Below are positions 4,051-18,819 of a stretch of 64,000 nt of DNA, piece by piece. Every line of letters starts with the position of its first letter. Within the stretch, counting starts at the first letter, position 1. The notes below the pieces were generated by a model that searched no databases, was not told the origin of the DNA, and saw nothing but the letters and a program-made list of their open reading frames with translations. The DNA lies in assembly GCA_026225115.1 (NCBI GenBank), contig JAMFSE010000100.1, positions 1 to 64,000 of the forward strand, in the 5' to 3' direction. This stretch comes from Rhodovastum atsumiense. GTDB taxonomy: Bacteria; Pseudomonadota; Alphaproteobacteria; Acetobacterales; Acetobacteraceae. The translations under genes and the position numbers were made by a program.

Positions 4051-4159
4051 CTCGCCTCCTTTTCATCTGTCAGAACCGCCGCCGCAAAATCCCTTGATCC
4101 ACCAGCCCGATCCAGCCCATAAAAACAACTCGCCACCTGAAGCTTGAGGAGTGCCGCTT

Positions 4160-5059
4160 ATGTCCCTGCTGCATCTGTCCAATGATTGCACGGAAGCCGC
4201 GGTGTCCGAAGCCCTGAAAACCCAAGGCTATGCCATCGTCGATGAACTCGTCCCGGCCGCGCTGATGGACCGCATCGCCGCCGAGATGGGTCCGCATATC
4301 GAAGCCACCCCCTATGGCCAGGACGCGTTCGTGGGCCAGCGCACGCGGCGCACCGGATCCATGATCGCCCGCTCCCCGGCATCCCGCGCGCTGATCATGC
4401 ACCCGCTCGCCATCGCCACGGCCAGGCATTTTCTCGGCCACGCCTCCACCTTTCAATTGCATCTCACCCAGGTTATCAGCGTCGAGCCGGACTCCCCGCC
4501 GCAGCCATTGCACCAGGACCAGCTCGCCTGGGATTTCTTCCCCTTCCCGGATGACTACCACGTCCAATGCAACATCCTCTGGGCCATGACGGATTACACC
4601 GAGGAGATGGGCGCCACCCGCGTCGTGCCGGGCAGCCAGTATCAGGCGCGCGGCAAAACCTACACGCAAGCTGACAGCCTGCCGGCGGTGATGAAGCGTG
4701 GCTCGGCGCTGTTCTACACCGGCAAGGTCTATCACGGCGCCGGCGCGAATGTGAGCGAAAAACTCCGCCAGGCCATCAACATCACCTATGCCGTCGGCTG
4801 GCTGCGGCAGGAGGAGAACCAGTTTCTCTCCACCCCGCTGGAGCTCGCCCGCACCCTGCCGGATGATTTGCTGCATGTGATGGGCTACCGGATGGGCTGC
4901 TTCGCGATGGGCTATGTGCGCGATTTCGAAGACCCGATGGTGGTCATCCGCGAACCCGCGAAGCGCGGCGTATTCGGCATCGGCATGACCCAGAAAAACG
5001 CCGGCGCCGATCATGCGATCAGCAGCCTGGTAGAACATCTGCACAAACATTCCGTTTAA
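4160..5059 (+). CDS. Phytanoyl-CoA dioxygenase (PhyH) family protein
   Basis: A 299-residue Fe(II)/2-oxoglutarate-dependent oxygenase of the PhyH family. The iron-binding facial triad is visible as HQD (H118, D120) and a distal YHGAGAN histidine (H192), with R203 in the position expected to bind 2-oxoglutarate. The family hydroxylates varied lipophilic or small substrates, so the substrate is unknown. ATG at 4160 is preferred over GTG at 4151 because GAGGAG sits eight bases before it. It stands alone; a second, diverged PhyH protein lies at 17974-18819. Confidence 0.85.
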   Translation: MSLLHLSNDCTEAAVSEALKTQGYAIVDELVPAALMDRIAAEMGPHIEATPYGQDAFVGQRTRRTGSMIARSPASRALIMHPLAIATARHFLGHASTFQLHLTQVISVEPDSPPQPLHQDQLAWDFFPFPDDYHVQCNILWAMTDYTEEMGATRVVPGSQYQARGKTYTQADSLPAVMKRGSALFYTGKVYHGAGANVSEKLRQAINITYAVGWLRQEENQFLSTPLELARTLPDDLLHVMGYRMGCFAMGYVRDFEDPMVVIREPAKRGVFGIGMTQKNAGADHAISSLVEHLHKHSV

Positions 5060-5512
5060 ATGCAGGACGGACAACGAGCGCCGCGCGCAATCCGCGGTCC
5101 TTTCGCAAAATCCGTTCGTTATTTATTCGATACGTTTCAATAACGTTATGCCAAAATGCATTTTTGAATGCCGGAAGAAAGCCGGGCATCCAATTTGCGA
5201 GAAGTCCAATACCACTCCAAACGACCTGCCCTGGCCCGGCGCATCCCGGACTTCACCAGAAAATATTCCGGTAATGTCAAGAATCCTCAACCTCCGGTCA
5301 AACCGCAGCTTCACGCAACTGGTACACTGCACCCCCAATTATTTTCATCCCATGCGTGCAAAACCCAGACGTGTTACTTTCCGATCTCAAAGCGGCAAAC
5401 AGCATGTTCAATACGAAAACGATATAATGCAGCACATAGATTACGCATTCGCGGGCAACTGCTTTCGCATTCTCCCGCCCCAAATTTCGTAATCCGGAAG
5501 GAACAAGAAACC
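5060..5512. other. Intergenic region, 453 bp
   Basis: No gene is supported; the open frames here have no family resemblance. At 5117-5145 the 7-bp arms CGTTATT and AATAACG form an inverted repeat, a possible terminator for the preceding gene. The segment is less GC-rich than its surroundings and ends with the lpxD ribosome-binding site GGAAGGAA at about 5497. Confidence 0.45.
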
Positions 5513-6577
5513 ATGCCGACACCGGCGCCGGAATCGCTTACAACTCCCGACATCACCGCGGACTCCCGCTTCTACAATCATTCCGGGCCATTCTCCGTGC
5601 GCCAGGTGGCAGCAGCCGTCGGCGGCAGCACCGCGGGGCTGGAGCGGCAGATTTCCGGGCTGGCGCCATTGAACGCAGCCTCCGCCACCGACCTCAGCTT
5701 CATCAACAGCCGCCGCTATCTCGCCTCTCTCAGCACCACCGACGCCGGCGCCGTCATCGTGGCCTCGGCGCTGGCCTATGCCGTCCCCACCGGCATCGAC
5801 GCCATCATCTGCGCCGATCCGGACGCTGCCTGGTCCATCGCCTCGGCCCTGTTTCACCCCAGGCCCCGCAGCGCCCCCGGCGTCCACCCCACCGCAAATG
5901 TCGCCGCCGGCGCCAGCGTGGACCCTAGCGCCGAAATCGGCCCCTTCGCCAATATCGAAGATGGCGCCAGTATCGGTGCAAACTGCCGCATCGGCGCTTA
6001 CACCCATATCGGCCCGGGCGTGCAGCTCGGCGTGGACTGCATCATCAACACCCATGTCAGCATCAACTACGCCATCCTCGGCAAGCGCTGCCGCATTTTT
6101 TCGGGCGTGCGCATCGGCGAAGACGGATTTGGCTTCACCGCCACCGCCACTGGTTTCGTCAGCGCCCCGCAGCTCGGCCGCGTCATCCTCGGCGATGATG
6201 TGGAAGTCGGCGCCAATTCCACCATCGATCGCGGCTCGGTCGCGGACACCGTCATCGGCGCTGGCACCCGCATCGATAATCTGGTGCAAATCGCGCACAA
6301 CGTCCGGCTGGGGCGCAACTGCGTCATCGTCGCCCAGGTCGGCATCGCCGGTTCCACCGTGCTTGAGGATTTCGTCCAGGTCGGCGGCCAGGCAGCACTT
6401 GCGCCGCATCTGCATATCGGCACCGGCGTGCAGATCGGCGCCCAGGCCGGGCTGATCGCGGACGCGCCCGCCCATGCCATTCTGCTCGGCAGCCCGGCGC
6501 AATCGCGGCAGGAATTCCTGCGCCAGGCCATCACCCTGAAACGCCTCAGCCGCCGCCCCAAACCGGAGCCTTCCTAG
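5513..6577 (+). CDS. lpxD: UDP-3-O-acylglucosamine N-acyltransferase LpxD
   Basis: LpxD adds the N-linked 3-hydroxyacyl chain to UDP-3-O-acyl-glucosamine in lipid A synthesis. The 354-residue protein has the family order: an N-terminal uridine-binding domain (to about residue 110), a left-handed parallel beta-helix of hexapeptide repeats (about 122-305), and a short helical C-terminus. H262 in QIAHNVRLGRN matches the catalytic histidine. The ATG at 5513 follows GGAAGGAA; the longer open frame from 5168 adds unrelated residues. It is isolated here, away from the usual bamA-fabZ-lpxA-lpxB group, so it could be either the sole copy or a paralogue. Confidence 0.92.
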   Translation: MPTPAPESLTTPDITADSRFYNHSGPFSVRQVAAAVGGSTAGLERQISGLAPLNAASATDLSFINSRRYLASLSTTDAGAVIVASALAYAVPTGIDAIICADPDAAWSIASALFHPRPRSAPGVHPTANVAAGASVDPSAEIGPFANIEDGASIGANCRIGAYTHIGPGVQLGVDCIINTHVSINYAILGKRCRIFSGVRIGEDGFGFTATATGFVSAPQLGRVILGDDVEVGANSTIDRGSVADTVIGAGTRIDNLVQIAHNVRLGRNCVIVAQVGIAGSTVLEDFVQVGGQAALAPHLHIGTGVQIGAQAGLIADAPAHAILLGSPAQSRQEFLRQAITLKRLSRRPKPEPS

Positions 6578-6643
6578 GGCAAAAGCGAAGCGTCGCATCC
6601 GGTCCGGATGGCGATCCCACCCCCATTGCGCTAGTCTCCGCGC

Positions 6644-7348
6644 ATGAACATCGCCGACTCCATCAAATCCGTCATCTCGCCGCCGCATAAGGCCGGCTAT
6701 CCCTTCATCCTGGGCGGCATCGTGGTCGCCGTGCTGGGCCTTCTGTTCTGGCACCCGCTCACCTGGCTTGGGCTGATTTTCACCTTGTTCTGCCTGTATT
6801 TCTTCCGCGACCCTGAGCGTGTCGCCCCGCCGCGCGCCAATGTCTTCCTGGCCCCGGCCGACGGGCTGGTCGTCAGCGTCGCGCCCGCCATCCCGCCCTT
6901 GGAACTCGGCCTGCCGCTGATCCCGCTGCCTTGCGTCGCCATTTTCCTCTCGGTGCTGGACGTTCACGTCAACCGTACCCCCATCGCCGGCACCGTCACC
7001 CGCATCGCCTACCATCCCGGCAAATTCCTCTCCGCCGCCGACGACAAGGCCTCCGATGAGAACGAGCGCAATTCGCTCGCCATAAAACTCCTGAATGGCC
7101 AGGAAATCGCTGTCGTCCAGATCGCCGGGCTGATCGCGCGCCGCATCGTCTGTGACGTCTCCGCCGGCCAGACCCTGTTCGCCGGCGAGCGTTTCGGCCT
7201 CATCCGCTTCGGCAGCCGCACCGACCTCTATCTGCCGGAAGGCACCACCCCTCTGGTCGCCCCCGGGCAGCGCATGATCGGCGGCGAAACCGTCATCGCC
7301 ACGCTCGATCCCAATTTTCCGAGCGATCCCATACTGGACACACTTTAG
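6644..7348 (+). CDS. psd: Phosphatidylserine decarboxylase proenzyme
   Basis: Psd converts phosphatidylserine to phosphatidylethanolamine at the inner membrane. The 234-residue chain is the short bacterial type: two hydrophobic N-terminal segments (about 20-52), the FFRDPER block, the LDVHVNR histidine motif (H108), and the self-cleavage site RFGSR with Gly190-Ser191, where the serine becomes the pyruvoyl group. It is followed after 8 bases by pssA, so the two steps from CDP-diacylglycerol to phosphatidylethanolamine are cotranscribed. Confidence 0.95.
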   Translation: MNIADSIKSVISPPHKAGYPFILGGIVVAVLGLLFWHPLTWLGLIFTLFCLYFFRDPERVAPPRANVFLAPADGLVVSVAPAIPPLELGLPLIPLPCVAIFLSVLDVHVNRTPIAGTVTRIAYHPGKFLSAADDKASDENERNSLAIKLLNGQEIAVVQIAGLIARRIVCDVSAGQTLFAGERFGLIRFGSRTDLYLPEGTTPLVAPGQRMIGGETVIATLDPNFPSDPILDTL

Positions 7349-7356
7349 GCCTCGCC

Positions 7357-8193
7357 ATGAGCGACTCCCCCAACCCCAAAATCATCCCGATTGGCCGCAA
7401 GAAACCGGCCCGCCGCCCGCGCCTTAGCGGCCAGAGTTTCAACAAAATGCTGCCGAATCTGATGACCCTGGTCGGGCTTTGCGTCGGCCTGTCCTCCATC
7501 CGCTTCGCGCTCGACGGCCGCTTCGGCAGCGCCGTCATCGCGGTCGCCGTCTCCGGCGCCATCGACGGGCTGGACGGCCGCCTCGCCCGGCTGTTGAAAG
7601 CCACCTCGCGCTTCGGCGCAGAATTCGACTCGCTGGCGGATTTCCTCTGCTTCGGCGTTGCCCCGGCGTTGATCATCTATCTCTGGTCATTGCAGGATTG
7701 GGGCGCCATCGGCTTTCTGCCGCCCTTGATGTACGCCTCCGCCATGGCGCTCCGCCTGGCCCGCTTCAACGCCGCGCTGGACACAGCACCCCCCGCCGCC
7801 TTTGCCTATAATTTCTTCACCGGCGTCCCGGCGCCGGCCGGCGCCGTGCTGGCGCTCTTCCCGCTTTTTGTCGGGCTGGAGGCCGATAAGATCCATCTCA
7901 TCTGGCTGCGCAGCGTCGTCGGTTTCCCGCTGTTCACCGGCGGCATCCTGGCCGGCGTCGCCGTTCTCTGCATCTCCACTTTGCCGATCTGGAGTTTCAA
8001 GAATTTCAAAATCCCGACCGCGGCGGTGCTGCCTTTGCTGCTCGGCGTCGTTGTCTTCGCCGCCGTCCTGCTGGCCGACCCTTATGGCGCCGGCGCGCTG
8101 GCCGGGCTCGCCTATATCGTCATGCTGCCGTTCAGTCTGCGCAGCTACCGCCGCCTGGCCCGCGAGGCCGAACTCCGCCGCGTCCCGGAATAA
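7357..8193 (+). CDS. pssA: CDP-diacylglycerol--serine O-phosphatidyltransferase
   Basis: PssA makes phosphatidylserine from CDP-diacylglycerol and serine. The 278-residue membrane protein carries a perfect CDP-alcohol phosphotransferase motif, DG-x2-AR-x8-G-x3-D-x3-D, at residues 73-95 (DGRLAR...GAEFDSLAD), in which the aspartates bind metal and substrate. About seven to eight hydrophobic segments follow. It is the second gene of the psd-pssA operon and supplies the Psd substrate. Confidence 0.94.
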   Translation: MSDSPNPKIIPIGRKKPARRPRLSGQSFNKMLPNLMTLVGLCVGLSSIRFALDGRFGSAVIAVAVSGAIDGLDGRLARLLKATSRFGAEFDSLADFLCFGVAPALIIYLWSLQDWGAIGFLPPLMYASAMALRLARFNAALDTAPPAAFAYNFFTGVPAPAGAVLALFPLFVGLEADKIHLIWLRSVVGFPLFTGGILAGVAVLCISTLPIWSFKNFKIPTAAVLPLLLGVVVFAAVLLADPYGAGALAGLAYIVMLPFSLRSYRRLAREAELRRVPE

Positions 8194-8262: not shown

Positions 8263-8421
8263 ATGAACGATCCAAAGGCAGCCCCGGCAAAAACCAGGCT
8301 CGACTGGTCAAAGCTTCTCGGTTTCGATCAGGTCAAGAACGTCGACCTCAATGAATTGCGGCTCACCGATCTCGGATTCTCCAAAATCGGCGCCAAAAGC
8401 TGCACCCCGCCACCGGCTTAG
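8263..8421 (+). CDS. Small putative precursor peptide A1 (52 aa)
   Basis: A 52-residue peptide starting at ATG 8263 behind AAGGAAAC. It has a polar N-terminus, then TRLDWSKLLGFDQ, a variable middle, and DLGFSKIGAKSCT near the C-terminus, ending in PPPA. The next small gene repeats this design, with the identical 13-residue DLGFSKIGAKSCT block. Directly downstream are an HExxH protein of peptide-hydroxylase type and an ATP-grasp-like protein. The conserved N-terminal part could be a leader and the C-terminal block a core, as in ribosomally made, modified peptides. That role is inference; no known precursor family was recognised. Confidence 0.7.
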   Translation: MNDPKAAPAKTRLDWSKLLGFDQVKNVDLNELRLTDLGFSKIGAKSCTPPPA

Positions 8422-8436
8422 TAAGGAGAGACGAAT

Positions 8437-8604
8437 TTGGACGATCCAAGGGCGAACAAAACCCGGCTCGATTGGTCAAAATTGCTGGGCTTCGACCAGA
8501 TCAAAATTGCCGGTCACGCTCAGCTGACTCTCTCCGATCTCGGATTCTCGAAAATAGGCGCCAAGTCCTGCACGCGGTTGCGGCCGGATTCCGACCCGCG
8601 CTAA
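8437..8604 (+). CDS. Small putative precursor peptide A2 (55 aa)
   Basis: A 55-residue peptide whose TTG start at 8437 is placed by AAGGAGAG eight bases upstream; no ATG is available. It shares TRLDWSKLLGFDQ and DLGFSKIGAKSCT with the peptide encoded 15 bases upstream, but has a different middle (IKIAGHAQLTLS) and a longer charged tail (RLRPDSDPR). This is a tandem duplication in which both ends of the peptide are conserved and the middle and tail vary. It precedes the HExxH gene by 32 bases and is probably cotranscribed with it. Function is inferred from context only. Confidence 0.7.
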   Translation: MDDPRANKTRLDWSKLLGFDQIKIAGHAQLTLSDLGFSKIGAKSCTRLRPDSDPR

Positions 8605-8636
8605 CCGCGGGACGGACCCACTAACCACCGCCTGCA

Positions 8637-9614
8637 ATGACCAGCATCTCCTTCCAACCGGACCCGGCGCGGGCCCGGCGGCTCGATTCCCGCATGCGCG
8701 CCCGGCTTGCCGATAGCCTGAGCTATATCGCCGCCGAAATGGACGGCGAGATTCAAATCCCCCGCCAGCTGGAATCCTTCCTGCAGAACCTTGCCGCCGG
8801 CCCGGTTTCGCCCGCGGTTTACGGTGCCTATTTCGACCTGGTTCTGGCATTGGAGCGCGGCGACCGGCCCGGCGGCACCACCTTGCTGAACGAGATCGTC
8901 ACCGCACCAATCCCCGCCCCAGGCACGGCAATTGTCGGCATCGGCGACCCCTCCAGCCAGACCGTCGCCGGCCGCTACCAACGCTTGATCAATACCGATC
9001 CCGACATTCATCTGACGCTCAAGCCGCCATCGCCCGCAACCGAAACCGCCGCCAAGTCACGATTAAAAGCAGCGTTCGAATTGCTGGAGCGCGGCTTCCC
9101 GGCGCTTGCCGCCGAACTCGCCGTCCTGCTCCGCGAAATCGTTCTCGCGGTGAATGCCGAGAACGTTCGTGCCACCTTCGACGGCGCCTCCTCCTTCATG
9201 CTGTGGGGCGCCATCATTCTGAACGCGGAGATCGGCGACACGCCGATCGCGCTCATCGAGGGCCTCGCGCATGAGAGCGGCCATAACCTGCTGTTCGGCC
9301 TCTGCGCCGATGGTCCGCTGGTCGAGAATGACGATTACGACCGCTTCCCCTCGCCGCTCCGCGCCGATCCCCGCCCGATGGACGGCATCGTCCACGCCGC
9401 CTATGTCATCGCCCGCATGCATCAGGCCGTGCATACCGTTCTGACCGCTGATCTGCTCGACAGCGCGCAAGCGACGCTCGCCCGGCAAAACCTCCGCAAC
9501 CATGCCGCAGCCTTTCAACGCGGCATCGACACGATCGACCAGTTCGGACATCTATCCGCCCTCGGCCAGGAATTGATGTCCGGCGCGCGCGACTACATGG
9601 CGCCGTTCATCTGA
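8637..9614 (+). CDS. HExxH protein, putative alpha-KG-dependent peptide beta-hydroxylase
   Basis: A 325-residue protein with the C-terminal signature of the HExxH peptide-modification family: GASSFMLWGA, then HESGH (212-216), then SPLRADPRPMDGIVHAAY (239-256). In characterised alphaKG-HExxH enzymes the HExxH residues bind iron, and members hydroxylate beta carbons of ribosomal peptides. The arginine-rich PLRxDPRP block is a plausible 2-oxoglutarate-binding region, by analogy. It follows two small peptide genes and precedes an ATP-grasp-like gene. A diverged paralogue is encoded at 13660-14652. The alternative reading as a metallopeptidase is less likely because of the downstream DPRP signature. 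Substrate and chemistry are inferred. Confidence 0.75.
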   Translation: MTSISFQPDPARARRLDSRMRARLADSLSYIAAEMDGEIQIPRQLESFLQNLAAGPVSPAVYGAYFDLVLALERGDRPGGTTLLNEIVTAPIPAPGTAIVGIGDPSSQTVAGRYQRLINTDPDIHLTLKPPSPATETAAKSRLKAAFELLERGFPALAAELAVLLREIVLAVNAENVRATFDGASSFMLWGAIILNAEIGDTPIALIEGLAHESGHNLLFGLCADGPLVENDDYDRFPSPLRADPRPMDGIVHAAYVIARMHQAVHTVLTADLLDSAQATLARQNLRNHAAAFQRGIDTIDQFGHLSALGQELMSGARDYMAPFI

Positions 9615-9645
9615 TCCGGCGCAAGCTACCGGCAGCGCCAGCGGT

Positions 9646-10614
9646 ATGATTGTTTTTCTGACAACCAAAGCGCATGACTACACCTTGAAGGACGTCGCGA
9701 AATGGAAAATCGCCGACATCCGGCTGCTATCCTACGACGCGCTCTTTCAGGCCAAATCCCTACCCGAAGCCACCTATGTCTTCACGGATTTCGACCGCCT
9801 CGGCTTCTGGGAACTCGAACTTGCCGCCGATGCCTACCGCAATCTGAGCGCCGCCGGGATGCGCGTGCTGAACGACCCGGCGCGCGCCTGCCAGCGCTAT
9901 TCCCTGCTCAAAGCGCTCAAAGCCGAGGGCATCAACCGGTTCAACATCTGGCGGGTCGAGGACGGCGAATGGCCTGACCGCTACCCGGTCTTTCTGCGTT
10001 TTCAATCCGCGCATCGCGGCCCGCTCTCCGGCCTGCTTGCCACAAGCGCGGAAGTCGAGCGGCAAATCGAGTGGGCGCTGTCCATGGGCCATCCCCGCAA
10101 GGAGCTGATGCTGGTCGAATACTGCGCCGAGCCCATCCGCGGCCAATTGTTCCGCAAACTCGCCAGCTTCCGCATCGGTGATCGGGTTTTTCTCTCGCTA
10201 AGCGTGCATGAGCAAAACTGGGTCGCCAAGGAAGGCCAGGTCGGCCTCGCCGATCAGGCCGACTACGAATGGGAACAGCAGGCGCTTGCGGAAAACCGCT
10301 ACAGCGCGACCATCAAACGCGCCTTCGAGATCGCCGAGCTGGAATACGGCCGCGCCGATTTCGGCCTGGTCTCCGGCACCCCGCAAATCTACGAGATCAA
10401 CACCAACCCGCACATCCCGCCGGGCACCAACCCACATATTTTTTCGACCCGAACCGCCAACCAGACTCTCGCCCGCCAGAATTTCATCGAGGCCCTGACA
10501 TCCATCGACACGCCCTCGCGTTTCTGGAACCGCAAAAGAATACCCAATGCGCCGTTGATCCTGGAACAGATGCAGCGCGACCCAAAAAGCGCGGTCCTGC
10601 GCTGGACCCCTTAG
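9646..10614 (+). CDS. Putative ATP-grasp-type protein of peptide-modification module 1
   Basis: A 322-residue protein opening with MIVFL. It has the blocks NDPARACQRY (76-85), FNIWRVEDG (99-107) and FPVFLR-like PVFLR (114-118). Near the C-terminus EYGRADFGLVSG...YEINTNPH (233-256) resembles the metal-binding end of ATP-grasp enzymes, where acidic residues and the Asn of EINxNP hold Mg-ATP. ATP-grasp enzymes join carboxylates to amines or thiols, and some form rings in ribosomal peptides. It sits 31 bases after the HExxH gene. An equal-length paralogue is at 14695-15663. The ATP-grasp assignment is from motifs and is not certain; no recognised named family. Confidence 0.65.
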   Translation: MIVFLTTKAHDYTLKDVAKWKIADIRLLSYDALFQAKSLPEATYVFTDFDRLGFWELELAADAYRNLSAAGMRVLNDPARACQRYSLLKALKAEGINRFNIWRVEDGEWPDRYPVFLRFQSAHRGPLSGLLATSAEVERQIEWALSMGHPRKELMLVEYCAEPIRGQLFRKLASFRIGDRVFLSLSVHEQNWVAKEGQVGLADQADYEWEQQALAENRYSATIKRAFEIAELEYGRADFGLVSGTPQIYEINTNPHIPPGTNPHIFSTRTANQTLARQNFIEALTSIDTPSRFWNRKRIPNAPLILEQMQRDPKSAVLRWTP

Positions 10615-11204
10615 GCCTGTTCGAACGGATTGATCGACAGGCAAATCGATAGAACCACCGCATCGCCACTTCCGCGGGCAACATAGGCATGCCGCATGGT
10701 GCTGTCGAAATAGCAGCTGTCGCCCTGGCCTAAAATCGCCGGCGTGTATTGCTCGGTATGCAGCTCCACCTCGCCTTCGATCACATAGGCGACCTCCTCG
10801 CCGTCATGGACGCTCCATTCCTCGAACGGCGGTACGCTGCGGCTTTTTATATGCATCACCAACGGCACCATCGCCTTCTGCGCCAGGTCCGTGGCATGGG
10901 CGGCGTAGCTGTAAATACCGCTCTCATAAACCGGCGCGGCAGCCGCCTTGGTCACCACCCGGCGGGCCATTTTATGCGGCGCCGGCGGCGGCGGTTCCAG
11001 CATATGCACGAAATTAATGTGCAGCGCCCTGGAGATTTTCAAAACCGTCTCAAACCCCGGCTTCTGCTGCTGGTTCTCGATTTTGGAAATCGTCGAAATC
11101 GAAACGCCGCTCAACTGCGACAACTCATCCAGCGTCAAATCCTTCGACTGCCGAAGAGATTTCAGTCTGCCGCAAAAAACGCCGATGAGCGCCGCCTCAT
11201 CCAT
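10611..11204 (-). CDS. XRE-family regulator with C-terminal cupin domain
   Basis: A DNA-binding regulator of 197 residues: an N-terminal helix-turn-helix (LRQSKDLTLDELSQLSGVSISTISKIENQ) and a C-terminal cupin (about 110-190) that would bind a small effector. Such XRE-cupin proteins, for example PuuR, control amine and amino-acid catabolism. ATG at 11204 is chosen; the longer frame from 11261 lies inside the nitrilase gene. Its start overlaps the nitrilase stop by 8 bases, so it is the last gene of the glutamine-synthetase-like/nitrilase operon and probably regulates it. Confidence 0.85.
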   Translation of the reverse strand: MDEAALIGVFCGRLKSLRQSKDLTLDELSQLSGVSISTISKIENQQQKPGFETVLKISRALHINFVHMLEPPPPAPHKMARRVVTKAAAAPVYESGIYSYAAHATDLAQKAMVPLVMHIKSRSVPPFEEWSVHDGEEVAYVIEGEVELHTEQYTPAILGQGDSCYFDSTMRHAYVARGSGDAVVLSICLSINPFEQA

Positions 11205-12138
11205 TATTCTGCCCGGCGCGGCCACGATTAACCGACAGGCCGAACAAATCCGGCCTTGCATAATGTCCGGACTGATCGAAATTTTGCCGCGCCCGATGCA
11301 GGCTGGCCTTGTCGATCACGTGCGAAGCAATCCCTGCGACCCCCGCCTCCAGCCGCGCCACAATTTCCTGCGCCGGGCTGTAAATGGCCGAGCCGCCGGC
11401 AAAAATAACATCGATCCCCGCCTCCGAAAAATCTTTATAAAACTCAAAATCCGAAGGAATATCGGACAGCGAAAGCAAACCGCAGACGCTGGCGCACCAC
11501 ACCCGGCCTTCCTGCGCCGCAAACACCGGCAACCCTTTCGTCACCGATTCATTACCCGGCCAGACGCAGATATGCACATCCTCGCCATCCTCATATAAAG
11601 CGGCGCGCGCATAGGTGATCCAGTTCTCCCAGCAATTCAGCCCGCCCACGCGAAACGCGCCAAATTCATGGCAGCGCAGATCCCGCGCATCGCCGGCCGC
11701 CCAGCACAGCCGCTCATCATAGGTCGGCATCAGCTTGCGATGCGCGCCGAGAATCCCAAGCCTCGCGTCAATGGTCACCAACGTGCACCACACGCTGCCG
11801 CGCCCGGCCCGGCTGCCGCGCTCATTCACGCCAAGATACACGGAAATTTTATGATCGCGCGCCGCCTCTGCAATCGCCGTCAGCTCCGCCCCGCCGATCT
11901 CCACCGCGTTCTCAACAAATTGCGCGTAGGCCCGTTGCTGCCGCGCATCCTCAAACGCCGCGCCATTGGTCCGGCAAATCCAGAACGGATATCCGGATAG
12001 AAAACTCTCGGAAAACGCCAGCAGCTCGATGCCCCGCCCCGCCGCCTCGGCAATGGCGTTCACGATAATATCGACCGTCGCGGCCTTATTGCCCCAGGCG
12101 GGACGAAGCTGCGCGATGCCAAGATGCATTTCACTCAT
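11197..12138 (-). CDS. Nitrilase-family carbon-nitrogen hydrolase
   Basis: A 313-residue member of the nitrilase superfamily, which hydrolyses nitriles or amides through a Glu-Lys-Cys triad. The triad is visible as E44 (FSESFLSGYPFW), K135 (RKLMPTYDERLCW) and C169 (GGLNCWENW). The RKLMPTYDERLCW and NCWEN blocks resemble true nitrilases more than amidases. The start at ATG 12138 lies two bases past the stop of the glutamine-synthetase-like gene, so the two are translationally linked. The natural substrate is unknown; an amide or nitrile whose nitrogen is handled together with the GS-like enzyme is plausible. Confidence 0.88.
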   Translation of the reverse strand: MSEMHLGIAQLRPAWGNKAATVDIIVNAIAEAAGRGIELLAFSESFLSGYPFWICRTNGAAFEDARQQRAYAQFVENAVEIGGAELTAIAEAARDHKISVYLGVNERGSRAGRGSVWCTLVTIDARLGILGAHRKLMPTYDERLCWAAGDARDLRCHEFGAFRVGGLNCWENWITYARAALYEDGEDVHICVWPGNESVTKGLPVFAAQEGRVWCASVCGLLSLSDIPSDFEFYKDFSEAGIDVIFAGGSAIYSPAQEIVARLEAGVAGIASHVIDKASLHRARQNFDQSGHYARPDLFGLSVNRGRAGQNNG

Positions 12139-12140
12139 TT

Positions 12141-13580
12141 TCAATACACCTCGAAATATTCCTGATGTTCCCAATCCGTCACGGCCGATAGAAACCGGTC
12201 GGCTTCGAATTTCTTCAGGCTGTAGAAATAATGATGGAACGCCTCGCCAAGCTCGCCGCGCAAAACCTCATTCTGCTGGAATGTTCCCAACGCCTCCATC
12301 AAACTTCCCGGCAGCACTGCCCGGTCCGACAGATAGGCTGCAATCGAAGGCGCCCCCGGATCAATCTTCCCCGCCACCCCGGCCCGGCCGGCAATAATCT
12401 GCGAGGCAATGTATAAATACGGATTGGCGTTCGGATCGCCGATCCGGTTTTCGATGCGCGAAGCATCATCCCCCGGGCCGCCGATCACCCGCAGCATCGC
12501 ACCCCGATTCTCCAGCGCCCATGCCGCCTTGAACGGCGCGAACCCATCCGGGCGCTGCCGTTTATAGCCGTTGATCGTCGGCGTGGTCAGCAGCGCGGTG
12601 CCGGGCGCATGCGCCAGCAACCCGCCCAGATAATGCATCCCCAGTTCGGACAACGGATCCGTACCCGCTCCCTCGGCTGCCATAAAAGCATTTTCCCCAT
12701 CACGGGTGATCGACTGATGCATATGCCAGCCGCTCGGAAAAGCATTAGCAATTTTCGGCAACGCCATAAAACTCGCATGGTAGCCGCCGCGCCGGCATAA
12801 TTGCTTCACCGCGGTGCGGAACAGCAGCGCCGCATCCGCCGCCTGCATCGCCGGCAGCGGTGCAAACGTCAGCTCGCATTGCCCCGGCCCCCATTCATCC
12901 TCCAGCGACGCCAAAGGCAGCCCGAGCGCTTCCAGATTTTTCTGCAGCATGCTGTACAGCGGCTCAACCTCATCGCCGCGGGTCTCGGTGAGGTACTGAT
13001 ACCCATGCGCAATATTCTCGACATCCGGCGGCGTTGGCGGATAGCCGCTATCCTCCACCGCCAGCCGCGGATTGGTCATTTTATAGACGTAGAATTCAAA
13101 CTCCAGCCCGACCGTCATCGCGAGGCTATCGCCGGCCAGCCTCTCCAACTGCTGGCGCAAAATCTGCCGGGTCGAGAGCGGACAAGGCTTGCCATTATGA
13201 AAATACGCATCCGACAAAATCCACCCCGTCGATTCCACCCAGGGGAGCACGCGAAACGTCGAAGGGTCCGGCACCAGCACCCCATCCGGCAGCCCGATCA
13301 TCTCCGGTATTCCCAGATGATTCTCCGCGCCGAACGGCGGCACGATCGGATGATTGGACGTGTCGAATATCGCGGTGACCAGCTGAAAATCCTTGCCGGA
13401 TTTCAGCGCCGAGGCGAATTCCCTGGCGGTCACCGTCTTGCCCCGCACAATGCCGTGCTGATCGCCCCAGCCGATGCGGATATTGCGGATATTCTCGGCC
13501 TCGATCCGTTTCAGCAATTCGGCCGCCTGGCGCTGCTGGTCCGCGCTCCAAAGCTCGTGCTTTTCGATAAACCCAACCAT
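12141..13580 (-). CDS. Glutamine synthetase-like enzyme
   Basis: A 479-residue glutamine synthetase-fold ligase. The N-terminal beta-grasp is followed by the catalytic domain with GLEFEFYVYK, EDEWGPGQCELTF, GWHMHQS, NGYKR and ENRIGDPNANPYLY motifs that bind metals, glutamate and ATP. Members outside the GlnA group gamma-glutamylate amines such as putrescine. ATG 13580 has GAGGGG six bases upstream; TTG at 13586 would have no spacing. It leads an operon with a nitrilase and an XRE-cupin regulator, which supports amine or amide catabolism rather than ammonia assimilation. Tandem repeats upstream may be the operator. Confidence 0.88.
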   Translation of the reverse strand: MVGFIEKHELWSADQQRQAAELLKRIEAENIRNIRIGWGDQHGIVRGKTVTAREFASALKSGKDFQLVTAIFDTSNHPIVPPFGAENHLGIPEMIGLPDGVLVPDPSTFRVLPWVESTGWILSDAYFHNGKPCPLSTRQILRQQLERLAGDSLAMTVGLEFEFYVYKMTNPRLAVEDSGYPPTPPDVENIAHGYQYLTETRGDEVEPLYSMLQKNLEALGLPLASLEDEWGPGQCELTFAPLPAMQAADAALLFRTAVKQLCRRGGYHASFMALPKIANAFPSGWHMHQSITRDGENAFMAAEGAGTDPLSELGMHYLGGLLAHAPGTALLTTPTINGYKRQRPDGFAPFKAAWALENRGAMLRVIGGPGDDASRIENRIGDPNANPYLYIASQIIAGRAGVAGKIDPGAPSIAAYLSDRAVLPGSLMEALGTFQQNEVLRGELGEAFHHYFYSLKKFEADRFLSAVTDWEHQEYFEVY

Positions 13581-13609
13581 GCTCAACCCCTCAGCAATTC
13601 GACTGGGAG

Positions 13610-13652
13610 TTTTCTAAACAAGAAAATTTTTCGTACAAGATAAATTTTTCGT
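13610..13652. promoter_or_regulatory. Tandem repeats upstream of the GS-like operon, candidate operator
   Basis: Two direct repeats lie end to end at 13618-13634 and 13635-13652: ACAAGA, then AAA (plus one T in the second), then ATTTTTCGT. A short palindrome TTTTCT-AAACA-AGAAAA overlaps at 13610-13626. They sit 38-72 bases before the ATG of the glutamine-synthetase-like gene, in an AT-rich island, where a promoter and the XRE-cupin binding sites would be expected. The link to that regulator is inference. Confidence 0.45.
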
Positions 13653-13659
13653 TCCTGAC

Positions 13660-14652
13660 CTAGTCCCGCATGTATGCCCGGGCCGCAGCGAACACCGCCG
13701 CACCCACCGGCGTGAACGCCGCGCTGACTGCAATGGTCTGTTGCGCATCGCAAAAATTCTGCGCAGCGCCTGCGTAGCGCTGCGCGGCCTCCGCCTGCTC
13801 CGCCGCCGTGACATGCCCATCCGCCAGCAGCGCCGGCTGCAGCAGCGCGCCCATGGCCAGATGCATCCGCGCCAGCACATAGGCGGCGTGCACCAACCCC
13901 TCCATCGGCCGCAGGTCTTCACGCAACGGCGAAACATGAAGCTCCCCGCCCGCATTCGCCGTCATCGGCCCGCCAAGGGTAAACCCGTGCAGCAGGCAAT
14001 GCGCGGCCTCATGCACAATACCCTCCACCAGTTTCACCCGGCTGCCATGCTGCGCCAGGTTCAGCGCCAGCGCCCCCCAGAGAAAAAAACTGCTGGCGCC
14101 ACGAAAAGCCAACGTCCCCGCACCCGCCTGGCTTTTTACCAGCACGATCTCATTGATCAGCGCGTCAATCTCCGCATGCAACGCCGGCGCCGCCGCAGCC
14201 AGCAAGGCCATGGCCCCGGCAACCCGCCGGCGCCCTTCCCGAAGCGCATCACCCTCAACCGGCAGCAGCGAAATCACATGCTCCGGATCATCCTGAACAT
14301 GCCCGCGATAGCGCTCCGCCATGCCTGGGCCAAGCTCCGCATCATCCAGGGTGACGATTCTAAAACCCGCCGGTTCCCGCCAGCAAGGCATCGCCAACTG
14401 CTGGACGACCCCGGCCAGGCTTGCTTCATCCTCGCCCATCAGGGCCGGCAGCAAATCCCCATACAGCGCTATAACCCCCGGCCGGATCGCATGCGCGCGG
14501 ATCGCGGCGGACAATTCCCGCAGCGCCGCCAGCGGCAAGCCGGCGCCCTCAACCACGCCGAACGCCGTGTCCAGACTATCCGCCAGCCTGCCCCGCACCC
14601 CGGCATCGATCGCCAAAACCCGCCCGGCATCCGGAAAGAACCCAAAATCCAT
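13660..14652 (-). CDS. HExxH protein, second putative peptide beta-hydroxylase
   Basis: A 330-residue paralogue of the protein at 8637. Shared blocks are GRLADSL near the N-terminus, FRGASSFFLWGALALN, HEAAH (214-218) and SPLREDLRPMEGLVHAAYVLARMH (241-264). The iron-binding HExxH and the arginine/RP block are kept, so both copies should be active. The N-terminal halves are much more diverged, suggesting different peptide recognition. ATG 14652 is chosen because GGAGG lies eight bases upstream and the protein then aligns with its paralogue; the longer frame to 15474 overlaps the divergent ATP-grasp-like gene. Start codons of the two genes are 42 bases apart. Confidence 0.72.
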   Translation of the reverse strand: MDFGFFPDAGRVLAIDAGVRGRLADSLDTAFGVVEGAGLPLAALRELSAAIRAHAIRPGVIALYGDLLPALMGEDEASLAGVVQQLAMPCWREPAGFRIVTLDDAELGPGMAERYRGHVQDDPEHVISLLPVEGDALREGRRRVAGAMALLAAAAPALHAEIDALINEIVLVKSQAGAGTLAFRGASSFFLWGALALNLAQHGSRVKLVEGIVHEAAHCLLHGFTLGGPMTANAGGELHVSPLREDLRPMEGLVHAAYVLARMHLAMGALLQPALLADGHVTAAEQAEAAQRYAGAAQNFCDAQQTIAVSAAFTPVGAAVFAAARAYMRD

Positions 14653-14694
14653 CGCTACCGCCTCCGGCCCCGGACCTGCTATCACTGCAGCCAA

Positions 14695-15663
14695 ATGATC
14701 GTCTTCCTCGCCGTTCGCCACCATCTCTACACCGTCGACAGCCTGTGCAGCCAGAAATACGGCCCCGCCCTGCCGGTGGTCCGCGCCATGGCCTACGAGA
14801 CCGCCTTTATCGCCCAGGCCTTCCACCGCGCCACCTATATCTTCACCGACATCGAGCGCTTGACCAACTGGGAGCGCATGCTGGCCGCCGACCTCTACCG
14901 GGCGCTCCGCGATGCCGGCTGCCGTTGCCTGAACGACCCCGCGCGCGTGCTTACCCGCTACCCGCTGCTCCGCCGCCTGCACCGGGAAGGCCGAAACCCG
15001 TTCAACGTCTGGCGCCTGGAAGACGGGCTGGACAACCCCAATTTTCCGGTCTTCCTGCGCCATGAGGCCGATCACGGCCACCCGCTCACCGGCCTGCTGG
15101 AAACCCCTACGGCACTCGCCGCCGCGCAATCTTCCCTGGAAGCCTCCGGCCTGCCGCTCGCCGGCCTGCTCGGCGTCGAATTCTGCGCCGCCCCCTTCGC
15201 ACCCGGCATCTGGACCAAATTCGGCACCTTCCGCATCGGCGAGACCCTCAGCACCGACCACGCCGTTATCGAGGACAATTGGTGCGTCAAATACGGCGTG
15301 GATGGCCTGGCCACGCCGGAGATATTCCAATGGGAATACGACCATGTCGCCGCCAACAGCTTTGCCCAACCCCTGCGCCCGGCCTTCGAACTCGCGGCCA
15401 TCGAATACGGCCGCGCCGACCACACAACGGTGAACGGCCGGGAGGTGGTGTTTGAGATCAACACCAACCCGCATCTCGTCGCCCTCAGCCCGCAGAAATC
15501 ACCGGTCCGCGACGCCATGGTGCAGATCGCCCGCGCCAGATACAGCGCCGCCCTTTGGGAAATCGACACCGAGCCCCGCGGCCCGATCAAACTGCAATTA
15601 TCCGAGCGCGCCGCCTACCACCGCAGCCGCACCACCCGCATGGGCACGCATTACCGCCCCTGA
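14695..15663 (+). CDS. Putative ATP-grasp-type protein of peptide-modification module 2
   Basis: A 322-residue paralogue of the protein at 9646, of identical length. Conserved blocks are MIVFL, ATYIFTDIERL, CLNDPARVLTRYPLL (78-92), FNVWRLEDG (103-111), FPVFLR (117-122), IEYGRADHT (236-244) and FEINTNPH (253-260). The last two resemble the ATP-grasp metal site. The start is set at ATG 14695, where similarity to the paralogue begins; the open frame runs back to 13741 only as a shadow of the opposite HExxH gene. It is divergent from that gene and followed 64 bases later by a small peptide gene, so peptide and enzyme may be cotranscribed. Confidence 0.65.
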   Translation: MIVFLAVRHHLYTVDSLCSQKYGPALPVVRAMAYETAFIAQAFHRATYIFTDIERLTNWERMLAADLYRALRDAGCRCLNDPARVLTRYPLLRRLHREGRNPFNVWRLEDGLDNPNFPVFLRHEADHGHPLTGLLETPTALAAAQSSLEASGLPLAGLLGVEFCAAPFAPGIWTKFGTFRIGETLSTDHAVIEDNWCVKYGVDGLATPEIFQWEYDHVAANSFAQPLRPAFELAAIEYGRADHTTVNGREVVFEINTNPHLVALSPQKSPVRDAMVQIARARYSAALWEIDTEPRGPIKLQLSERAAYHRSRTTRMGTHYRP

Positions 15664-15727
15664 AAATCCGATTGGACAAATCCGCGCGTTATTGCCAAGC
15701 TGGCCCGCATAAACAAGGGGGCTCGCC

Positions 15728-15898
15728 ATGAAAATCGATCTGACCATGCTGCAACAAAAACTCGCCAAGGGCGACCTGCTTGGCTTTACGCTCGCCGAAG
15801 ACGCCAAGGCCAGTAAAGCCAGCACCGTAAAACTCGGCGCAACCAAATTGGTGCCGACGAAGCTTGGCCTGGCCAAAACCGGCCTGACCAAAGGCTGA
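15728..15898 (+). CDS. Small putative precursor peptide A3 (56 aa)
   Basis: A 56-residue peptide starting at ATG 15728 behind AAGGGGG. Its N-terminal half ends in KGDLLGFTLAED; the LLGF (17-20) occupies the same position as LLGF in the peptides at 8263 and 8437. The C-terminal half is a basic, glycine-rich repeat of KLG/TKL/KTG units (KLGATKLVPTKLGLAKTGL, 36-54) with no Cys, unlike A1 and A2. It follows the second ATP-grasp-like gene on the same strand. A precursor role is inferred from this shared layout. Confidence 0.6.
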   Translation: MKIDLTMLQQKLAKGDLLGFTLAEDAKASKASTVKLGATKLVPTKLGLAKTGLTKG

Positions 15899-15904
15899 AC
15901 CGGC

Positions 15905-16723
15905 CTAGTTCTCCATCCGGCTGAGGTTTGCCTTCGGAAACAGGCAAACCCCGTCCGCGCAGGGAAAATACCCGTAGAAATCATTGACGAAGGCGGGGGC
16001 CACGTGGGCCGCCGTGCCGGGCAAAAATTCGGCATGCGTCACCAGATATCGAATACCGCCGATATCGGCGACCGCCCCCAGCGATCCCAGCGCGCTGACC
16101 AACCTCAAAATCTGCGAACCTGTTTGCACCGCCGACACCGTTCGGTCCTCCAGGCTGAATTCTGGCTGATAACTGGCAAGCGCTTCATCCTGCGGCCTCG
16201 CCTCCAGCTGCCGCAACCGCTGCAGATCGATGCCAGCCAGCAACCCGATCGCTGCCTGATTGGCCCAATGCGTATAAACCTCCAGACTGCAGCCCGCATA
16301 TTCCGCCAGTGACGCCTGCGCGACGATCCCGCCCGTGTCAAATCCTGCATCCAGAACATGCAGGCTGACACCGGCGGATTCCGGAAATTTTGTCAGCGTC
16401 CATAGTGGCGAGACCGGCCCGCGGCCCAGCGGCAGCAGGCTCGGATGCAGGTTCAAAAACCGGCAATCGCCCGCCGCCGGAATCGACAGCCGGTAGCCGT
16501 AGGACGCGCAAAGCACGAGGTCGGAATCCGCCGCGAACGCCGCCATCTCCGGCTTCCGCACCCGATCCAGAACCAGCGGTAGTTTTTCAGCCTGGGCAAT
16601 CCGGCAAACATGCTCGCCCAGGCTTGCCTCCGTCACCACGCGGTTGATCGTCACATCCGGCCGCGCCGCCAGATACAACAGCACCGGCGAGAAATAATCA
16701 TAGCCGATATAGCTGATCCGCAA
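15905..16723 (-). CDS. Formyltransferase-family protein
   Basis: A 272-residue protein with the fold signature of 10-formyltetrahydrofolate-dependent formyltransferases (as in methionyl-tRNA or sugar-amine formyltransferases): SYIGYDYFSP at the start, NLHPSLLPLGRGP (HPSLLP motif with the catalytic His), and DAGFDTGGIV (conserved Asp). A start cannot be fixed with certainty; TTG at 16723, five bases after the P450 stop, begins the conserved region, and longer forms run inside the P450 gene. It is the last gene of a PhyH-P450-formyltransferase operon that converges on the small peptide gene at 15728. The formyl acceptor, a sugar amine or a peptide amine, is unknown. Confidence 0.75.
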   Translation of the reverse strand: MRISYIGYDYFSPVLLYLAARPDVTINRVVTEASLGEHVCRIAQAEKLPLVLDRVRKPEMAAFAADSDLVLCASYGYRLSIPAAGDCRFLNLHPSLLPLGRGPVSPLWTLTKFPESAGVSLHVLDAGFDTGGIVAQASLAEYAGCSLEVYTHWANQAAIGLLAGIDLQRLRQLEARPQDEALASYQPEFSLEDRTVSAVQTGSQILRLVSALGSLGAVADIGGIRYLVTHAEFLPGTAAHVAPAFVNDFYGYFPCADGVCLFPKANLSRMEN

Positions 16724-16728
16724 ATTGC

Positions 16729-17955
16729 TTAGCTCACGGCCCCGAAGCGGATCGGCAGTTTGGTCCAGCCGATCTGAAACTCGGAAATCGGCCACTCCCC
16801 TTCCTCGGGATGCACGGTGTAATCGCCGATCGCGGCCAACAGCTCCCGCAGCATGATCTGCCCTTCCAGCCGCGCCAGATGAATGCCGATGCAAAAATGC
16901 GGCCCCACCCCAAAGCTGAGCATCCGCCTTGCCTTGCGGTTCCAGACAAACGCATCCGGATTCTCGAATTCGCGCCGATCGCGATTGGCGGCGGCAACCA
17001 GCAAAATCGCCCGCTGCCCAGGCTCCAACTCAACCCCGCCGACCCGCACCTTGTTTTTCGCCGTCCGCCCAAACCATTGCGCCGGCGCATTATACCGCAG
17101 CATTTCCTCAAACGCCGGCGGCACATTCGCCGCCAGATCCGCCCGCACCGCGGCCAATTGCTCCGGCCTGCGCGCCAGCTCCAGCATGCCGGCGGCTACA
17201 ATCTTCGGAATCGTCTCGGTGCCGCCAACAAGAATCCCTAGCAGGCTGATCGAGATCTCGGCATCGCCCAGCGGCCGCCCGATGAAATCACCTTTCAGCA
17301 AACCGTCGATCAACAGGCTTGCCGGGCCTTCACCGCACCGCCGCCGCGCCACCGCCGCCATCAAAATGCCCATCAGCTCCTGCCGCGCTTCCGCGCCGCC
17401 CGCCGTCGGCCCCGCATTCTCCACATCGCGCGTCACCATGCGGTTGACCAGGCTGATCACATTCGGCGCATCTTCAAGCGGCAACCCCATCGCCATCGCC
17501 GTCGAGCCCACCGAAATATGGCTGCCGAAATCGCCATTCAGATCAAATTCACCCAAGGGCAGCAGCAGTTTCAACCGGTTGCGCACCATCGCCGTAATCT
17601 CCGGCTCAAGCTTGCCAATGCTGCCTTTCAGAAACGGCGTCCCCATCGCGCGGCGCAGTTGCGAATGCACCGGCGGATCGACGAAATTGAACATCGTCAG
17701 CGGATCGAGCTGCTGCGCCGGCGGGTTGCCGCGATGATGCACCAGCACCTGCTCACGCGAAAAAACCTGCCCTTCGGATTCCGTAAAATTTTCGGAATCC
17801 ATGAACGCATCCCAAACATCGGCGTATCGGCTGAACACATACGCATCGTATTCCGGAATAAAATACGTCGGATGCTGCTCGCGCAGCACCGCATAAAATG
17901 GCTGCGGGTCCCGCCGCGCCGCCTGCGAATAGGGATCGTACGCGAATGAAGTCAT
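16729..17955 (-). CDS. Cytochrome P450
   Basis: A 408-residue bacterial class I P450 monooxygenase. The haem-ligand loop is FGVGPHFCIGIHLAR with Cys355, the K-helix ExxR is EEMLR (E284, R287), and the I-helix oxygen-activation motif reads GGTET (244-248). ATG 17955 is preferred to TTG 17961. It starts 18 bases after the PhyH stop and ends five bases before the formyltransferase start, so all three are probably one transcript. No ferredoxin partner is in the window. The substrate is unknown. Confidence 0.93.
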   Translation of the reverse strand: MTSFAYDPYSQAARRDPQPFYAVLREQHPTYFIPEYDAYVFSRYADVWDAFMDSENFTESEGQVFSREQVLVHHRGNPPAQQLDPLTMFNFVDPPVHSQLRRAMGTPFLKGSIGKLEPEITAMVRNRLKLLLPLGEFDLNGDFGSHISVGSTAMAMGLPLEDAPNVISLVNRMVTRDVENAGPTAGGAEARQELMGILMAAVARRRCGEGPASLLIDGLLKGDFIGRPLGDAEISISLLGILVGGTETIPKIVAAGMLELARRPEQLAAVRADLAANVPPAFEEMLRYNAPAQWFGRTAKNKVRVGGVELEPGQRAILLVAAANRDRREFENPDAFVWNRKARRMLSFGVGPHFCIGIHLARLEGQIMLRELLAAIGDYTVHPEEGEWPISEFQIGWTKLPIRFGAVS

Positions 17956-17973
17956 ATCCAAATCACCAGATCC

Positions 17974-18819
17974 TTAGATTTCTTGCGCGTTGACCGCGCG
18001 CATCTTGCCAAGATCAGGCCGCTCGCCTTGATCAATCCGTACCAGCCCGCCGCCGATCCGCGAATTTCCCATCGGCCCCAGCCCGAACAGAACCCGCTCC
18101 CCGGCCAGGCTATCCTTCGTCGCCGGCGACAGGCAGCCTTCCCAGTTCACCTGCGGCCGAATGAAATCCGCCCCGTAATAGGCAAACAGCATCGCCCGGC
18201 GCGCATCCGCGGTCACATTGGCGCCGGAGGTATGCCATACCCGGCCATCCATCGCGATCACCGATCCCGCCGGTGCCTCGAACGCGACCGACCGCTCGGC
18301 CACATCCGCCGGCACTTCCTCGAAATTTTTCCAGTGATGGCTGCCCGCAACGTAGCGCGTGGCGCCGTTGGCCTCATAAACATCATCAATGCACCAGATA
18401 ATATTCATCGCCCATGCCGAGTTCCAGGGTGGCGGGATCACCAGCGCCTGGTCCGCATGAATCTTCATTGGCTTCGAGCCCGGTAGCGCGATATTCCCGG
18501 TAAAGTTCGAGAGAATATGGTTGGCGCCAAGGTTGATATCGACCAGCGCCTGCACCGTGGGATTGCGCAGCAGATCGACAAAGGCCGGATCCCATTCCGG
18601 CAGATTATAAAGCCGTATGTTCGAATCATTCGGATCGATGATGGCGGTATGCGTGGCAACGCCCCGTTCCCGCATCTTGGCGATCGTGCTGTCGATGGCG
18701 GCCCGCACCCGGCCCAATTCCTCCTCGGAAATAACCCCGGGAACGATGGTAAAACCGTTCTCCCGAATCTCCTGTTCCGCCCGCTGCCTGTCGAACCCCG
18801 GGTTTTGCACCGCCGTCAT
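17974..18819 (-). CDS. Phytanoyl-CoA dioxygenase (PhyH) family protein
   Basis: A 281-residue Fe(II)/2-oxoglutarate oxygenase. The metal ligands are HAD (H121, D123) and the distal VWHTSGAN histidine (H196), with R207/R208 expected to hold 2-oxoglutarate. The conserved NGFTIVPGVISEEE opening is typical of PhyH. It is the first gene of the PhyH-P450-formyltransferase operon, giving two different oxidising enzymes plus a formyl-transfer step. It is only distantly similar to the PhyH protein at 4160-5059. Confidence 0.87.
   Translation of the reverse strand: MTAVQNPGFDRQRAEQEIRENGFTIVPGVISEEELGRVRAAIDSTIAKMRERGVATHTAIIDPNDSNIRLYNLPEWDPAFVDLLRNPTVQALVDINLGANHILSNFTGNIALPGSKPMKIHADQALVIPPPWNSAWAMNIIWCIDDVYEANGATRYVAGSHHWKNFEEVPADVAERSVAFEAPAGSVIAMDGRVWHTSGANVTADARRAMLFAYYGADFIRPQVNWEGCLSPATKDSLAGERVLFGLGPMGNSRIGGGLVRIDQGERPDLGKMRAVNAQEI

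Follow-up and report, generated by a model that had tools for sequence, protein, structure and literature searches.

In corallotide, a group 15 graspetide of the CorA/B/C system, an ATP-grasp enzyme and a 2-oxoglutarate (2OG) oxygenase act on KIVAD repeats, the Lys being linked to the Asp of each motif, and Asp and Glu are the acceptors in graspetides (PMC13097080). In the aKG-HExxH family of peptide-modifying oxygenases, PflC and PosC are described as cleaving the peptide backbone oxidatively and leaving an amide end (PMC12636437). Here we analyse two gene modules in a 64,000-nucleotide stretch of Rhodovastum atsumiense DNA (contig JAMFSE010000100.1, positions 1 to 64,000; hereafter the window), each of which encodes an HExxH protein (H), an ATP-grasp-like protein (G) and one or two short peptides (A). 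Module 2 (H2, G2 and A3) is our main subject; module 1 (A1, A2, H1 and G1) spans 8263-10614, lies entirely on the plus strand and ends about 3 kb ahead of H2. We consider it probable that such modules represent an undescribed family of ribosomally synthesized and post-translationally modified peptides (RiPPs), in which H hydroxylates a precursor peptide and G uses ATP to form an acyl bond, the lysine of a K-x-G motif being the probable site of both reactions; we infer this chemistry from computed enzyme families, folds, motif conservation and co-divergence.

Modules containing both H and G number 12 in 11 genomes: the two of the window and those of loci L003, L013, L015, L018, L024, L052, L054, L056, L057 and L068. 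The four H proteins that were scanned (H1, H2 and those of L024 and L056) score 100.4, 73.1, 75.0 and 99.8 bits, respectively, against TIGR04267 (NCBIfam, aKG-HExxH-type peptide beta-hydroxylase), for which the cut-off is 40. The AlphaFold model of H2 (pLDDT 92.4) matches the HExxH domain of ChlBH (8s5f_E) in Foldseek with a TM-score of 0.69 and an E-value of 2.7e-11, and a profile of seven H rows matches the same entry (8s5f, ChlH) at 3.9e-10. Across the 12 H sequences, aligned to ChlH, the HExxH, S-P-x-R, R-P and G-x-x-H-A block is invariant. On the strength of profile and model we place H1 and H2 in the aKG-HExxH peptide beta-hydroxylase family, with catalysis predicted; because both profile and fold fit this family, the reading of HExxH as the mark of a metalloprotease is rejected.

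The G proteins are less readily named by family profiles. Neither G1 nor G2 matches a Pfam family at an E-value of 1, their NCBIfam matches lie far under the cut-offs (11.3 against 30 bits and 14.1 against 390 bits), and all six H-linked G proteins that were scanned stay below the NCBIfam cut-offs. The model of G2 (pLDDT 85.9, residues 194-201 being weak) matches RimK (4iwx) in Foldseek at an E-value of 4.5e-9, and RimK is also its closest fold in VIA-align (5zct_A; Z 15.8, root mean square deviation 3.8 over 257 residues); LysX/ArgX come next, RimK to LysX/ArgX covering the range Z 15.8 to 14.1, and the graspetide ligase PsnB is found below RimK at Z 13.3. From this model we predict a RimK-like ATP-grasp fold for G2. 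Residues R240, D242, E254, N256 and N258 of G2 are invariant in the 12 aligned G rows, and G1 aligns with the conserved E-I-N-T-N-P and R-x-D motifs; we take the E-x-N motif to be the metal motif of ATP-grasp enzymes.

To find putative precursors we scanned 25 sources (371,156 bases) for small open reading frames (ORFs) in which [LIM][LIM]G[FYLG] precedes K-x-G-x(0-3)-K. This pattern, derived initially from the window plus a few relatives, was relaxed afterwards (F to Y, L or G); having been fitted in part to the very loci on which it is counted, it makes the scan only partly independent. The scan returned 20 ORFs, of which 19 are taken as precursors: the window has three, L068 has six, and the nine other modules and L017 have one each. 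The remaining ORF is a stray (L015, 4744-5112). The general RiPP arrangement of a small precursor gene, with a conserved leader and a separate core, beside the modifying enzymes is found in all 12 H+G modules. No such ORF occurs in 12 loci that carry G without H or in L016, and Markov-shuffled sequence from 10 of the sources gives no match in 573,570 bases. Under the strict leader [LIM][LIM]GF, 16 matches are left; lost are the stray and one precursor each from L052, L054 and L017. For the precursors of L013, L015, L018, L024 and L056 and for two of those of L068, translation was taken to begin at an internal Met.

K-x-G is present in every one of the 19 cores, with 47 copies against a shuffled mean of 12.9 (maximum 25 in 500 shuffles), and K-x-G-x(0-3)-K occurs 38 times against a shuffled mean of 4.2 (maximum 12). 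Between Lys and Gly stands mostly V, I, L or M, and the residue after Gly is variable. A2 is 73% identical to A1 over residues 2-48. The initial annotation had placed LLGF at the same position in the peptides of the two modules and had given A3 a different core. The tetrapeptide does lie near the same position (residues 18-21 in A1, 16-19 in A2 and 17-20 in A3) and the core of A3 does differ from those of A1 and A2, but K-x-G, which had been missed, is common to all three (KIG in A1 and A2; KLG, KLG and KTG in A3). A3 has no family match in Pfam or NCBIfam. It is preceded by AAGGGGG, and its G+C content by codon position (0.56/0.42/0.68) reaches its minimum at the second position, as it does in H2 and G2, a coding-like trend. 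In L068, six short ORFs, each with an LLGF leader and a K-x-G core, stand in a row (4233-5467, minus strand) upstream of a single H gene, and two tandem G genes diverge from them.

We compared the histories of enzymes and leaders across the 12 modules, using one G per locus (one of two was kept for L052 and L068) and one peptide per module (A1 for module 1, one of six for L068). The H protein of L015 was trimmed to the conserved start, and that of L024 was taken from just after the peptide stop, because its first ATG, GTG or TTG falls inside the conserved part. The H and G trees have eight of nine bipartitions in common, where 20,000 label shuffles gave at most four of nine, and the H and G distances are correlated with a Mantel r of 0.81 (0 of 9,999 permutations as high). 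For a 16-residue window of the leader, r is 0.66 with H (0 of 9,999) and 0.43 with G (22 of 9,999). H, G and leader thus co-diverge. Shared species history may account for part of the agreement between the H and G trees; the placing of the window's two modules apart in both trees does not come from species history alone. Module 2 clusters with L013, L003, L015 and L024 in both trees. One node is in conflict, L018 falling with module 1 in the H tree and with the module 2 group in the G tree; forcing the node either way gives p-AU values (approximately unbiased test) of 0.043 and 0.0475 for groups that were chosen after seeing the trees, and the conflict may reflect either a swap or weak signal.

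Between the two modules, H1 and H2 are 35% identical over 281 aligned columns and G1 and G2 are 41% identical over 296. Constraining the copies to be sisters is rejected for H1/H2 (p-AU 6.8e-10) and for G1/G2 (p-AU 2.6e-4), and the modules are therefore not a recent duplication. The view from which we started, that these are two co-evolved enzyme-substrate sets, is borne out by this rejection together with the co-divergence, and the sequences support modules 1 and 2 as two old, separately evolved sublineages with precursors of their own. As to co-duplication of the enzymes inside this genome, separate acquisition of the two modules fits as well. The ATP-grasp-like genes are indeed of equal length. 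The claim that the N-terminal halves are the diverged ones holds for H (27.5% identity in the first half, 39.8% in the second) and fails for G (44.5% and 36.5%).

From these observations, we propose that each module would be a minimal two-enzyme system modifying a ribosomally made peptide. The enzymes would recognize the N-terminal leader around [LM]LGF, as its conservation and its divergence in step with the enzymes suggest. H, an Fe(II)/alpha-ketoglutarate oxygenase by profile and fold, would then hydroxylate the core, most likely at the K-x-G lysine, and G would activate a carboxylate and bond it within the same motif. The identity of the G partner is the weakest step: a free amino acid or small acid placed on the lysine amine seems to us likelier than a side-chain macrocycle, since acidic residues are missing there from many cores. 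Removal of the leader and export would be carried out by machinery encoded elsewhere.

Several observations weigh against this proposal. The evidence for the lysine is its conservation, and the Gly of K-x-G is as constant as the Lys. In the available text of PMC13060819, aKG-HExxH enzymes are credited with hydroxylating His, Asp, Phe, Gln and Pro, with Lys not among the residues named. Gene order is not constant: A3 lies behind G2 and A1/A2 lie ahead of H1, while the precursor stands between H and G in the other ten of the 12 modules. One of the two G proteins of L068 reads EVNTAP and thus has no last Asn of E-x-N-x-N. Among ORFs of at least 100 residues in 13 sources, several of whose contigs are short, neither a transporter nor a peptidase is found repeatedly beside the modules; in the same comparison the only ORFs common to at least three sources were H, G and their antisense frames. 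Finally, G homologues stand alone in 12 loci (L014, L019, L025, L026, L049, L050, L051, L053, L055, L069, L070 and L071), in whose available stretches tblastn found no H; confinement of G to H+G modules is ruled out, and since these loci also have no leader-plus-K-x-G peptide, G homologues must have other roles too.

Loci with H and no G bear on what the leader may address. Queried with the 12-row H alignment, seven of 299 genomes of the family gave a match: four with an H+G module (G000, G014, G120 and G217), two with a long H match but no G either in the G2 search of the family or nearby (G105 and G086) and one with a partial match (G083, locus L082). In two further genomes, G039 and G167, G lies at contig ends and the H search found nothing. 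In G086 (L084), a Gly-rich repeat protein of 1,481 residues (1772-6217, minus strand) diverges from an HExxH enzyme (6338-7432, plus strand) near which there is no ATP-grasp gene. The N-terminal region of the repeat protein has the sequence LQFDPARLLGF, and the protein has three Lys in all its 1,481 residues, one of them in K-x-G; only four of 1,060 ORFs of at least 100 residues have [LIM][LIM]GF in their first 45 residues, namely this protein, the L024 precursor and two others. It is possible that the HExxH enzyme modifies this giant protein. In G105 (L083, 563-2993), the gene behind H encodes an AMP-binding enzyme (PF00501, 2.4e-32). Facing H is an ORF, cut off by the contig end, that contains LVGF and KVG, and the G2 query detected no ATP-grasp relative in this genome. 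In a tree of 14 H sequences, the L083 protein falls inside the module 2 group and the L084 protein forms a long, unsure branch. The two loci offer a hint that H is what LLGF addresses, that K-x-G repeats belong with the ligase and that the second step is the activation of a carboxylate. More tentatively, as possible rather than probable, we put forward a wider version of our proposal: a new RiPP class whose K-x-G lysines are acylated or cross-linked by a RimK-like ATP-grasp enzyme and hydroxylated by an aKG-HExxH enzyme, with no acidic acceptor in the motif, LLGF serving as an oxygenase tag that is used also on the L084 repeat protein, and an AMP-binding ligase standing beside H in the place of G at L083. 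Against the main proposal, the evidence from H without G comes from one clear locus (L084), and from one or two loci in all.

The modules might instead make a graspetide-type product, G joining the Lys amine to an Asp or Glu side chain as a macrolactam and H hydroxylating the linked Lys, as in corallotide. We regard this as unlikely. The pair of enzyme activities and the Lys-centred repeats are those of corallotide (PMC13097080), PsnB is among the fold matches of G2, and Asp or Glu lies within -5 to +7 of 19 of the 47 K-x-G motifs (for example in L054, L056 and L068); the other 28 motifs have neither, and in seven of the 19 precursors, A3 included, there is none from the first K-x-G to the end. 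A1-A3 and other precursors do carry Asp or Glu closer to the leader, so that a link over a longer distance is possible. RimK, rather than PsnB, is the closest fold of G2, and the NCBIfam cut-offs go unreached. A standard graspetide, with Ser, Thr or Lys as donor and Asp or Glu as acceptor, was rejected, as many cores do not follow that rule.

Smaller still is the chance we give to H cutting the backbone at the Gly of K-x-G in the manner of PflC and PosC, which would yield short, C-terminally amidated peptides for G to extend or cap. The precedent for such chemistry within the family speaks for it, as do the constancy of the Gly and the repeats, which would yield several short products. The precursors, however, show no ARMD site like that of PflC and PosC, the residue after Gly is not constant, and A1, A2, the L003 precursor and five of the six from L068, with no more than one or two K-x-G motifs each, would give few products. 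That A3 is no substrate at all, a chance neighbour of enzymes acting on other proteins or small molecules, seems improbable to us: A3 is short and without a family match, and the G-only loci lack any such peptide, yet a leader-plus-K-x-G ORF accompanies every H+G module, with no match in shuffled sequence and one stray among the 20 matches in real sequence. A recent tandem duplication with fast divergence inside this genome, suggested by the presence of both modules in one 8-kb stretch and the rarity of G in the family, is hardly credible and is ruled out by the constrained trees and by the grouping of module 2 with other loci.

Homologues of G are sparsely distributed in the sets searched, which overlap. 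The G2 query finds a match in six of 299 genomes of the same family and four of 395 of the order, and in none of the 20 same-genus genomes listed; the 12-row G alignment finds nine of 385 in the class and nine of 398 in the phylum, partly remote G-like proteins, all four of these positive counts including the source genome itself. A 9-row G alignment finds five of 129 in the family of G1113, one of 10 in the family of G800, and two of 15 and one of five in two genera. In counting modules, L023 was treated as one with L003, being the same contig, and neither L017 (G and a peptide on a contig that ends before any H) nor L016 (G at a contig end) was included. Searches of plasmids with G2, the L052 G protein, H1 and the L057 H protein gave two G records and four H records (34-56% of the query covered), and no record was matched by both G and H queries. 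Elsewhere in the window's own genome, contig C51 (L019, 9707-10294, minus strand) has a third, short G-like ORF of 195 residues with no H or precursor in 19 kb. Near the contig-end G gene of L016 and a glycosyltransferase gene are two ORFs (729-965 and 1018-1221, plus strand) with repeats of the P-L/M-G-P-P-P-P type, the reverse strand also being repetitive.

The positions of the genes in both modules are collected in Table 1; for module 2, the divergence of H2 and G2 and the peptide gene behind them are just as first annotated, all coordinates being confirmed.

Table 1. Features of the two modules, with positions counted from the first letter of the window (aa, amino acids).
Feature	Position	Strand	Details
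A1, putative precursor peptide, module 1	8263..8421	+	52 aa; leader LDWSKLLGF; KIG core
A2, second putative precursor, module 1	8437..8604	+	55 aa; TTG start; AAGGAG upstream
H1, predicted aKG-HExxH-type enzyme, module 1	8637..9614	+	325 aa; HESGH
G1, predicted ATP-grasp enzyme, module 1	9646..10614	+	322 aa
H2, predicted aKG-HExxH-type peptide beta-hydroxylase, module 2	13660..14652	-	330 aa; ATG start; HEAAH motif
H2-G2 divergent intergenic region	14653..14694		42 bp
G2, predicted RimK-like ATP-grasp ligase, module 2	14695..15663	+	322 aa; EINTNP motif; C-terminal RP
A3, putative precursor peptide, module 2	15728..15898	+	56 aa; leader ...KGDLLGF; core KLG, KLG, KTG

A3 begins 64 bp after G2. 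The open frame of H2 extends to 15474, because the antisense of G2 is also open. Within 13500-16100 there is no sigma-70-like promoter match, and terminator-like sites number four against 3.1 expected. The G+C content at 8-16 kb (0.60-0.64) is similar to that of the remaining window (0.57-0.66), and there is therefore no sign of an island there. Genes for a helix-turn-helix-cupin regulator, a carbon-nitrogen hydrolase and a glutamine-synthetase-like protein (10611-13586, minus strand) lie on the same strand behind H2 and are possibly co-transcribed with it; they have no relative in the other loci compared, and for this reason we exclude them from the module. Adjoining A3, formyltransferase-like, cytochrome P450 and PhyH-like dioxygenase genes stand in a row (15905-18819, minus strand).

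We found no paper that pairs an aKG-HExxH enzyme with an ATP-grasp partner in a literature search of main texts that included few subscription papers; in the same search the sole paper since 2019 to combine ATP-grasp, HEXXH and biosynthetic gene cluster concerned a microviridin protease, and the term HExxH is absent from the main text of a graspetide survey (PMC8939145). The set is compact and recurring: a single oxygenase is combined with one or two ligases and one to six precursors, and there is a clear motif where the chemistry probably acts. The two diverged natural sets in one genome and the six-precursor locus offer ready-made tests of cross-reactivity. Should the lysine indeed be modified, the aKG-HExxH family would gain a target that the available text of PMC12636437 and PMC13060819 does not name, and the ligation would be a new job for a RimK-like ligase.

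The system resembles corallotide in joining an ATP-grasp ligase and a 2OG/Fe oxygenase on a repeated Lys motif; the acceptor Asp, on the other hand, belongs to corallotide, whose oxygenase is termed a divergent 2OG-Fe(II) enzyme in a paper (PMC13097080) that nowhere uses the word HExxH and whose passages on the system show neither an LLGF leader nor K-x-G. With ChlH, PflC/PosC, PesO and BpmH it shares the aKG-HExxH family, the ChlH fold being that of H2, whereas the partners named for those enzymes are radical SAM, MNIO, MNIO-nitroreductase and asparagine-synthetase-like proteins, and the term ATP-grasp does not appear in the main texts (PMC12636437, PMC13060819). Like PsnB, G2 is predicted to combine an ATP-grasp fold with a peptide substrate, but the K-x-G set, with acidic acceptors absent from many cores, falls outside the graspetide acceptor rule, and the fold score of PsnB is lower than that of RimK. 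RimK and LysX/ArgX, the closest solved folds to the G2 model, are only 12-15% identical to it over the aligned parts; RimK acts on the C-terminus of S6 and, going by the titles of their PDB entries, LysX/ArgX on the LysW carrier, in place of which we would here expect K-x-G peptides.

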